Below, in pieces: positions 1-9,004 of a DNA stretch of 64,000 nt. Origin of the DNA: Lutibaculum baratangense AMV1 (GTDB lineage: Bacteria > Pseudomonadota > Alphaproteobacteria > Rhizobiales > Tepidamorphaceae); contig NZ_AWXZ01000023.1 of the NCBI RefSeq assembly GCF_000496075.1, positions 1-64,000 of the forward strand, given 5' to 3'. A program made the translations under genes and the position numbers. How positions within the stretch are numbered: position 1 is the first letter of the stretch; every line of letters begins with the position of its first letter. A model generated the notes under the pieces. The model was not told the DNA's origin. It saw only the letters and a list, made by a program, of their open reading frames with translations, and searched no databases.

Positions 1-1
1 C

Positions 2-1342
2 ATGGCCGAACGCATCATCTACCAAAGCGACGGCCTGGCCGATGATCCCTACCGCGTCGGCGGTGAGCTGGCGGGATGGCAAGAGGGACTTGCCCGATAT
101 GCCGTTGGCAATTCGCGGCTGGCGTTCGCGATGAGCGCCGCGTTTGCCGGGCCGCTCTTGCTGCCCGCCGAGGCGGAATCCGGTGGCTTCCATTTTCGCG
201 GTGGCTCTTCGATCGGAAAGACCACGGCGCTTCAGGTCGCCGGATCGATATGGGGCGGGCGCGACTTTCCCCGCACCTGGCGCGCGACTTCGAACGGGCT
301 GGAATCGGTGGCGCTGATGCACTGCGACACGCTCTTGCTGCTCGATGAAATGGGCCAGTGCGATAGCCGGGAAGTCGGCCAGGTCGCCTATATGCTGGCG
401 AACGGCCAAGGCAAGACCCGCGCCGGGCGAAGCGGTGAAGCGCGCCGGGCCGCCCGGTGGCGCACCCTCTTCCTTTCGACGGGCGAGATCGGCCTTGCCG
501 ACAAGATCGCCGAGGATGGCAGGGGCCGCCGAGCGGCAGCCGGGCAGGAAGTTCGCATCGTGGATATTCCCGCAGATGCGGGCGCGGGCATGGGTATCTT
601 CGAAACCCTTCATGGCTTCCCGTCCGCCGACGCCTTCGCCCGCCACCTGAAGGCGGCAGCCGGTGAACATTTCGGCCACGCTTCCCATGCCTATCTTGAC
701 CGTCTGACCCGCGACTTCGACGGCATCGCGCCCGTGGTGAGCGGCTTCCAGAATGAGTTTGTCGCCGAGAACTGCCCGCCGAATGCCGATGGACAGGTGA
801 GCCGCGTTGTGGCGCGCTTCGCTCTTGTGGCTGCCGGTGGTGAAATGGCGACGGCCTTCGGTGTGCTGCCTTGGCAGCCGGGCGAAGCGACCAGGGCAGC
901 GGCAAAGTGCTTCCGCGATTGGCTCGACACGCGCGGCGGGATCGAACCGGCTGAAGAGCGCGAAGCCTTGTCCGCCGTCCGCCGCTTTATCGAGTTGCAC
1001 GGCACGTCCCGCTTCGAGCCTATGGGCAGCCTTGCCCCGACCGACAACATGGGTGCACCGATCGACACGCGCATTCAGAACCGGGCGGGCTTCCGCCGTC
1101 GCGATGATGAGGGAAGCATTGAATATATCGTCCTGCCCGAAGTCTGGCGCGGCGAAGTGTGCGCTGGGCTTGACGCGGTGATGGTTGCGAAGACGTTGGC
1201 CGGGCGCGGGATGCTGAAGCCCGGCAGCGGGGGCAAGCTCCAGAATAACCAGCGTGTGCCCGGCTTCCCTTCGGCGATCCGGTGCTACGTGGTTACGTCC
1301 GGCATCCTCGGTGACGATGCAAGGGAGGCCGCCCATGCCTAA
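2..1342 (+). CDS. DUF927-family helicase/primase-like protein, 5' end probably cut by window edge
   Basis: A P-loop protein of the DUF927 family, found as the replication ATPase of many prophages and satellites. The Walker A motif (GGSSIGKTT, about residues 67-75) and a Walker B-like LLLLDEMGQ near residue 112 are visible. Relatives have a longer region before Walker A, so the ATG at base 2 is probably internal and the gene starts left of the window. It ends 8 bases inside the next gene, showing translational coupling. Likely role: unwinding or initiating replication of the excised element. Family assignment rests on motif order and context; no helicase activity can be shown from sequence alone. 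Confidence 0.7.
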   Translation: MAERIIYQSDGLADDPYRVGGELAGWQEGLARYAVGNSRLAFAMSAAFAGPLLLPAEAESGGFHFRGGSSIGKTTALQVAGSIWGGRDFPRTWRATSNGLESVALMHCDTLLLLDEMGQCDSREVGQVAYMLANGQGKTRAGRSGEARRAARWRTLFLSTGEIGLADKIAEDGRGRRAAAGQEVRIVDIPADAGAGMGIFETLHGFPSADAFARHLKAAAGEHFGHASHAYLDRLTRDFDGIAPVVSGFQNEFVAENCPPNADGQVSRVVARFALVAAGGEMATAFGVLPWQPGEATRAAAKCFRDWLDTRGGIEPAEEREALSAVRRFIELHGTSRFEPMGSLAPTDNMGAPIDTRIQNRAGFRRRDDEGSIEYIVLPEVWRGEVCAGLDAVMVAKTLAGRGMLKPGSGGKLQNNQRVPGFPSAIRCYVVTSGILGDDAREAAHA

Positions 1343-1637
1343 TCTTGCCCGGTTCACCGCCTTTGCCAGCCGTGTCGGCGCTGTAGCACCGGCCTGTAGC
1401 ACCTGTAGCACCGTAGCACCCGCCAAGGTGCTACAGGAATTAACTAGTAATATCAACGTTGTAGCACCTGTAGCACCTGTAGCACCACGAATTGACGATG
1501 AGACGCACGAAAGCGACCTTCTCGACGCCTACGAAGAGCGCGCCGCGATCATGGAATATGACGGCGTATTGCCCCGCCACGAAGCCGAAGCCCTTGCTTG
1601 GAAGGAAGTCTTCGGCGACCGGGCAAGGGCAGCGTAA
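1335..1637 (+). CDS. Small element protein carrying an internal iteron-like repeat
   Basis: A 100-residue protein of unknown function, start chosen at ATG 1335 because GGGAGG sits 6 bases upstream and the start overlaps the end of the DUF927 gene. The middle is encoded by repeated GTAGCACC units, which give the VAPVAPVAP stretch. The C-terminal half is acidic and probably helical (LLDAYEERAAIMEYDG). Since the repeat seems to dictate the protein sequence, the DNA repeat may be the selected feature. It lies between the replication gene and a terminator, so it closes the replication module. Confidence 0.6.
   Translation: MPNLARFTAFASRVGAVAPACSTCSTVAPAKVLQELTSNINVVAPVAPVAPRIDDETHESDLLDAYEERAAIMEYDGVLPRHEAEALAWKEVFGDRARAA
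1383..1486. repeat. Iteron-like GTAGCACC repeat cluster
   Basis: Seven direct copies of GTAGCACC begin at 1383, 1396, 1405, 1413, 1461, 1470 and 1479, and one inverted copy GGTGCTAC lies at 1427-1434. Several neighbours are 8-9 bases apart, mostly in the form TGTAGCACC. An AT-richer stretch (about 1437-1460) separates the two groups. Position beside a DUF927 replication gene suggests a replication origin or initiator-binding cluster, which is inference. Confidence 0.75.
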
Positions 1638-1684
1638 AGCCCCGTCAAATGCCTGAATTTCCTCGCCTTTTCGAGCACTTCTAA

Positions 1685-1706
1685 GACGGCCTTCAGGGCC
1701 GTTTTT
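1685..1706 (+). terminator. Rho-independent terminator
   Basis: ACGGCC (1686-1691), loop TTCAG, GGCCGT (1697-1702), then a T run to 1706. It follows the small protein and separates the replication part from the head-gene operon that starts at about 1762. Confidence 0.8.
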
Positions 1707-8458: not shown

Positions 8459-8470
8459 AGGAGCAAGACC

Positions 8471-8842
8471 ATGCACGAAGTCAGCATCACCGGATTGAGC
8501 CGAGTTTCACAGCCGAAGCCGAACAAGGGCGGGAACACTATACTGGCGTTCTTCGATTGCCAGGCGAACGGATTGGCGCTGGCCGGGTGCGCCTTCGTTC
8601 GTACCGCCCGCCAAGGTCTCACCGTGTGGCCGCCAAAGCTCGAAGGGACGGATGCGGCCCGCCGAAGCGTCGGCATCACCGACGAGCATCTTCGCAAGCT
8701 GATGGTCCGCCAGGCACAAGAGGTTTACCGCGCCCTCGGCGGCACCGATGGCGAGTGGATCAAGACTTGGGATGAAGAGAAGTCGGACCAGGCCGACGAA
8801 GGGAACGGGCTTCGCCGCTTCCTTTCGAATGGCGCGGAATAG
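8471..8842 (+). CDS. Hypothetical protein at the right end of the element
   Basis: A 123-residue protein with a good ribosome site (AAAGGAG, then 7 bases, then ATG). The N-terminal part contains ILAFFDCQANGLALAGCAFV and a TVWPPKLEG turn. This recalls the layout of small beta-fold proteins such as SpoVG, but I would not assign it to that family. The C-terminal half is charged and helical. It is the last gene of the element and is co-directional with TerL (12 bases downstream). Function unknown. Confidence 0.55.
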   Translation: MHEVSITGLSRVSQPKPNKGGNTILAFFDCQANGLALAGCAFVRTARQGLTVWPPKLEGTDAARRSVGITDEHLRKLMVRQAQEVYRALGGTDGEWIKTWDEEKSDQADEGNGLRRFLSNGAE

Positions 8843-8927
8843 CAGGAATTTTCCGCCGCCCGCTTCCTATGTGCTTCCTGCGCCGCTGAAGAGCTATTGG
8901 AGAAGGCGGCTAAAGCCTTGATTTTGT

Positions 8928-9004
8928 TGGCGCACCCGACAGGATTCGAACCTGTGACCTCTGCCTTCGGAGGGCAGCGCTCTATCCAGCTGAGCTACGG
9001 GTGC
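8928..9004 (-). tRNA. tRNA-Arg (anticodon CCG)
   Basis: A full cloverleaf on the minus strand. The acceptor arm pairs GCACCCG with CGGGTGC. The anticodon stem CTGCC/GGCAG encloses the loop CTCCGAA, with CCG as anticodon, reading CGG arginine codons. The T arm carries GGTTCGAATCC. The genomic copy encodes the terminal CCA at 8928-8930. Its 3' end faces the mobile element, so the gene is the probable integration target and has been kept intact. Confidence 0.95.
8929..8953 (-). repeat. tRNA-Arg 3' end, probable attachment site core
   Basis: The 3' 25 bases of the tRNA gene (T arm, acceptor 3' strand and CC) adjoin the mobile element. The same 25 bases occur in the opposite orientation at 9136-9160. 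A direct copy, if present, should lie at the left end of the element, outside the window. Confidence 0.6.

Follow-up and report, generated by a model that had tools for sequence, protein, structure and literature searches.

A predicted capsid-forming satellite integrated at a tRNA-Arg gene of Lutibaculum baratangense AMV1

The window (the whole stretch of 64,000 nucleotides analysed here, G000:C23:1-64000) very probably holds the right half of an intact, integrated 15.3-kb satellite that would work like a capsid-forming PICI (cf-PICI). We have high confidence in this predicted mode of working because all of its testable features were found, with the one exception that the match to an AlpA regulator is weak. 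The element would most likely build its own capsid and borrow a tail.

Extent of the element and attachment sites

The window starts at base 1 of contig C23, in an assembly of 43 contigs, and the left end of the element is absent from it. We found this end on contig C25 (15,385 bp) of the same assembly, and the two parts together measure 15,313 bp plus a gap. Two copies of the tRNA-Arg(CCG) 3' end bound the element. They are identical at 46 of 48 positions, and the two differences, both compensating, lie in the T-stem. Outside its att copy, C25 carries host DNA with a PAP2 gene and a higher GC content. The genes flanking the element are not conserved in family relatives, as was seen in a comparison for an empty site, and no cos site was found through conservation of short blocks. 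At window 9107-9160, 100 bp past the tRNA, the tRNA-Arg 3' end recurs as a degenerate, inverted copy, perhaps the scar of another integration.

From left to right the gene order is integrase, cargo, XRE repressor, AlpA-like HTH, zinc-ribbon, Toprim primase, DUF927/P-loop, iteron origin, portal, protease-capsid fusion, p5707, adaptor, closure, HNH, TerS, TerL, SpoVG-like and attR. All left-arm genes on C25 except the XRE repressor are on one strand. Gene calls were made by profile searches with Pfam and PHROGs, and the tRNA was located with ARAGORN:

C25:6339-6386, partner copy of the tRNA 3' end (second att)
C25, left arm, tyrosine integrase (PF00589 4.2e-16, Arm domain)
C25:4775-4870, second iteron cluster, after the integrase, GTAGCACC six times
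C25, left arm, SocA/Panacea-domain protein and small ORFs
C25, left arm, conserved 324-aa protein
C25, opposite strand, XRE repressor (HTH_3 1.4e-5)
C25, AlpA-like HTH protein of 92 aa (HTH_17 E 0.056, a weak match; same place in relatives)
C25, zinc-ribbon-like protein of 96 aa
C25:3-1235, minus, Toprim-DUF927 N-terminal ORF, first half of the primase, running to the contig end
2-1342, plus, DUF927/P-loop protein, second half of the primase-helicase, complete at 446 aa (DUF927 2.9e-52)
1254-1637, plus, 127-aa ORF overlying the iterons
1383-1486, iteron cluster, GTAGCACC eight times in both orientations, flanking an AT-rich stretch
1759-2985, plus, portal protein (PF04860 1.7e-104, phrog_12)
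2972-4639, plus, prohead protease, coiled coil and HK97 major capsid protein in one ORF (PF04586 7.8e-31, PF05065 6.8e-89)
4646-5038, plus, phrog_5707 protein (p5707), directly after the capsid gene (3e-34)
5102-5692, plus, head-tail adaptor, gp6-like connector (phrog_442 2.3e-29, PF05135)
5695-6015, plus, head closure protein, the tail-facing connector (PF05521 4.4e-15, phrog_25)
6020-6400, plus, HNH endonuclease (phrog_144 2.9e-17)
6466-6876, plus, TerS (PF05119 2.4e-21, phrog_83)
6845-8458, plus, TerL (PF20441, PF03354, Pfam 2.4e-42; phrog_9 6.8e-138)
8471-8842, plus, conserved 123-aa protein with a SpoVG-like predicted fold, between TerL and att
8928-9004, minus, tRNA-Arg(CCG) with attR
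8953-8975, 23-bp att core common to both copies

These results bear out and extend the gene content given in a sequence-only reading of the window, and support its interpretation as a candidate cf-PICI-like satellite. It had described a DUF927 protein with a full HK97 head and packaging set, and every gene that it named was matched by HMM in the order given; the element also reaches a tRNA attachment site, as proposed. For the left side it had predicted a region of about 10-20 kb that ends at a second att copy, contains genes for an integrase, a primase and an AlpA-like or other regulator, and has no tail genes; C25 agrees with this, the AlpA-like match being weak.

The join of C25 to C23 is inferred from relatives, in which the gap is 4 nt: four bases, CTAG in the relatives, are missing between position 1 of C25 and position 1 of the window. 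The contig break sits exactly between the two primase ORFs, and the sequence at this junction in L031 and G660 is GGAGACAAC TAG C ATGGCC. A primase fused in frame across the join was considered and rejected: the relatives have a stop, a new ATG and the four extra bases, so that the apparent fusion is an artefact of the gap. Since the primase ORFs of the relatives meet where the contigs break, the window ORF at 2-1342 is complete.

Near-identical copies and selection

The sequence-only reading had allowed that an unlinked left side would mark a degraded remnant. Near-identical copies lying whole on single contigs show the left side joined to the part in the window. In two IMG/VR contigs, L031 and L032, most shared genes have about 99% amino-acid identity to those of our element. 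A copy in G660, a genome of another order of the same class, measures 14.8 kb, has both att copies in the same tRNA-Arg(CCG) and carries different cargo beside the integrase; most of its shared proteins are 97-100% identical. The simplest reading of the G660 copy would be recent transfer, and near-identical copies in different orders suggest that the element is still mobile.

In comparisons with L031 and L032, nearly all omega values of the portal, capsid, adaptor, TerS, TerL, primase and integrase genes fall at 0.03-0.10. The head, packaging and replication genes are thus under strong purifying selection, which argues against a decaying remnant.

Replication module

The PF06048 domain is divided between the two primase ORFs, with profile positions 1-130 on C25 and 134-282 in the window. 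The same two-ORF arrangement is present in L031, L032, L033, L012, L037, L038, L044 and G660. The iteron cluster that follows the primase, with eight copies of one word in about 100 bp, exceeds what was seen in 100 shuffles, where no 8-mer occurred more than four times in 110 bp. Relatives keep the iteron sites with an altered word, mostly changed at both sites together: TGTATCACG in L012, TGTAACACC in L044, TGTTACACC in L045 and TGTTCCCC in L039. The cluster after the primase is a probable self-encoded replication origin, and by analogy with PICI and P4 origins the primase-helicase of the element would bind the iterons. Some relatives have a cluster within the head operon, so the iterons may have a regulatory role. 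The overlying ORF at 1254-1637 is probably non-coding over most of its length, apart from a short conserved part at the C-terminal end (omega of 0.5-0.8 between close pairs; phrog_22422 E 5e-4 over 30 residues).

Head, packaging and att-end genes

Protease and capsid form a single ORF also in L012, L013, L031, L032 and G660; they are separate ORFs in L018 and in plasmid L178. The closure gene of L031 and L033 is a different allele, with 67% amino-acid identity and a pS of about 0.5 against about 0.1-0.2 in neighbouring genes. This exchange, between elements that are near-identical elsewhere, fits selection on the tail-facing connector, and other causes are possible.

The unusual placement of HNH-TerS-TerL at the att end, which the sequence-only reading had set apart from a standard prophage, holds in comparison with annotated phages, which have the opposite order, terminase before portal. 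Between TerL and att lies the 123-aa protein, of which 12 homologues adjoin TerL. Its model has a pLDDT of 76, and SpoVG proteins make up all eight of its top PDB matches (probability 0.99-1.00, best E 3.5e-3). Downstream of TerL, the window, L038, L039 and L040 have the SpoVG-like gene and then a tRNA; in L013 and L014 a tRNA comes next, with host genes after it.

Absence of tail and lysis genes

Pfam and PHROGs searches of both contigs recognised no tail, tape-measure or lysis gene in the element, including the C25 part, where tail genes would have spoken for an ordinary prophage. We also searched 119 non-core ORFs from 14 sister elements, in which the distance from integrase to TerL is 13.4-15.2 kb. 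Neither tail nor lysis families were recognised there (Pfam complete; PHROGs for the first 25 of 48 families), in agreement with the original claim. Six tape-measure queries and six tube queries gave no match in the 14 sister loci. The operon is so tightly packed from portal to att that a tube gene would not fit. This absence rests on profile searches, in which p5707 and the left-arm ORFs have no assigned function, and on a home-made gene finder that misses some ORFs, such as the tube gene of L162.

The wider family

The best portals and capsids among 50,697 phage records are about 39-42% identical to those of the window and the best TerLs 34-39%; none of the three proteins exceeds about 42% in these records. 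Satellite relatives of the element reach 70-99%. In the portal tree, the labels of which are approximate, the window falls within an 18-row clade of head-only elements (support 100/99), nested in a wider 52-row clade (100/99) that takes in all the integrase/head elements. The comparators used, namely eight INPHARED phages, three standard-order chromosomal loci and four GTA loci, all fall outside the wider clade. From one element to another, the identities of capsid, portal and TerL do not run in parallel, a sign of module exchange. Within the order, 10 of 397 genomes have a portal match at E <= 1e-100, and within the class 7 of 385; these counts include both head-only and tape-measure-bearing types and the window genome itself.

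The initial idea that all portal relatives of at least 45% identity are tail-less was rejected owing to a subgroup with tape measures and to L162 with a tube; the claim of tail-lessness is confined to the clade of the window itself and to the sisters that were checked. Integrase-head-TerL elements bearing a tape measure are L015, L016, L017, L060, L160, L161, L163, L164, L165, L166, L170 and L180, together with plasmid L179. Several also have tail-chaperone-like (assigned by eye), tail-completion and terminator genes, and no major tail protein was recognised in this group. In the copies of G007, G183 and G011, host genes begin a few kb past the tape measure. L162 (G357:C128), of the same portal clade, has a tail-tube gene (43% identity to its counterpart in Pseudomonas phage VW-6S) on a contig of only 11.7 kb, and is a possible tailed relative. 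Two relatives are closed circular plasmids with head and packaging genes: Roseomonas mucosa pTT14-8 (L178, CP099479.1; 16.9 kb), in which no tape measure was found, and a Paracoccus marcusii plasmid (L179, NZ_CP157016.1; 17.5 kb), which has one.

Judged by gene content, the wider clade is a graded series, with genes for a tape measure and tail chaperones in some of its members further from the window. Since it includes members with tape measure, chaperones and terminator and one fragment with a tube, both loss and gain of the tail within it are possible.

Discussion

cf-PICIs encode their own capsid and packaging set (PMC10690885) and have a mean size of 14 kb (PMC10803314). Our element resembles them, for example EcCIEDL933 of E. 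coli, in having capsid, protease, portal, connectors, HNH, TerS, TerL, integrase, repressor and primase (PMC10690885, PMC10803314, PMC13230959), in lacking a tail and in its size of about 14-15 kb, a likeness that rests on gene content. It is integrated between att sites, has its own replication module of Toprim, DUF927 and iteron clusters, and encodes on the opposite strand an XRE protein predicted to be a Stl-like repressor; the 92-aa HTH_17-like protein is a candidate for the AlpA regulator of Gram-negative PICIs. Unlike cf-PICIs, it has a protease fused to the capsid, a primase split within DUF927 and a SpoVG-like protein at the att end. The host class differs as well: tail-borrowing satellites are known chiefly from Enterobacteriaceae, Pasteurella and Firmicutes, and Alphaproteobacteria are missing from the taxon list of the same study (PMC10803314). 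We found no description of cf-PICIs in Alphaproteobacteria in the literature searched, a search that key papers fell outside and that is not proof of absence.

Other known systems offer partial parallels. The cf-PISP satellite-plasmids of Vibrio (PMC13230959) likewise have head and packaging genes and no tail, and the relatives of our element include comparable circular plasmids; unlike them, the element itself sits in a tRNA gene with an integrase. MulchRoom and MiniFlayer of Streptomyces (PMC10690885) encode their own capsid and packaging genes, and MulchRoom takes its helper's tail, but they have no primases and parasitise virulent phages. The closest capsid of solved structure is that of the Rhodobacter capsulatus GTA (PDB 6tb9, E 2e-51). 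GTA-like clusters, however, were seen with tail genes and terminase before portal, whereas our element has an integrase, att sites, a primase and iterons.

In the proposed life cycle, a helper phage would relieve the XRE repressor, upon which the integrase would excise the element and the split Toprim/DUF927 primase-helicase would replicate it from the iteron origin. The element's portal, protease-capsid and connectors would assemble a head, HNH-TerS-TerL would package only element DNA, and the closure protein would couple the head to the tail of the helper, which would lyse the cell. No resident helper phage was recognised: searches with a single family each for TerL, tape measure and sheath gave no match outside the window element. 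PADLOC gave no match in the element's own cargo.

That the element is a decayed prophage, now immobile after losing its tail, lysis and fibre genes, is quite improbable. Its head and terminase are of phage type, and distant relatives with tape measure and tail chaperones, one of them with a tube, make an ancestral tail loss possible; yet all main genes are intact and under the selection described above, a 97-100% identical copy has its own att pair in another order, and the tail-less layout is repeated in many relatives. The baseplate, tail and lysis genes and the terminase-before-portal order of an ordinary prophage were not found. An autonomous small tailed virus with tail proteins too divergent for recognition is very improbable, even though p5707 and several left-arm ORFs are without known function. 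The head operon has no space for a tube, the other unassigned ORFs are small or regulator-like, and tail, baseplate and lysis genes would need more than the total length of the element; moreover, p5707 relatives directly follow the capsid gene both in the elements and in a fragment with a separate tube gene.

It is also conceivable, with the lowest probability of these alternatives, that the satellite works as proposed and takes its tail from a resident GTA-like locus and not from a phage. Such a locus (L010/L011; G000:C39, about 246700-263000), with portal, protease-capsid and major tail protein, holds the only other PF05065 (HK97) capsid and the only tape-measure match recognised in the genome, and its adaptor is 34% identical to that of the window. 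However, such loci are common in the class, so that co-occurrence says little, and its capsid and portal are only distantly related to those of the element. The search of the genome for other tail types was non-exhaustive, and the reported helpers of cf-PICIs are temperate phages (PMC10803314).

A more tentative proposal, possible though short of probable, is that these elements form an independent alphaproteobacterial lineage of capsid-forming satellites, graded from head-only forms through forms with head plus tape measure, chaperones and terminator without a recognised tube to possible tailed relatives. If so, the middle forms would control how long a borrowed tail is or its compatibility, or would be fossils of ongoing tail loss. 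IMG/VR contigs of 13-15 kb with 33-38% capsid matches were rejected as further satellites, the three that were placed in the tree grouping with GTA loci. The present family suggests that some 14-17 kb "virus" contigs in IMG/VR are satellites.

A wide alphaproteobacterial family with near-identical members across orders would mean that DNA is carried in this way between distant hosts in another large class, and the copies of the element give concrete places in which to search for helpers. Comparison of the head-only, tape-measure-bearing and tailed relatives would make the origin of capsid-forming satellites from phages testable.
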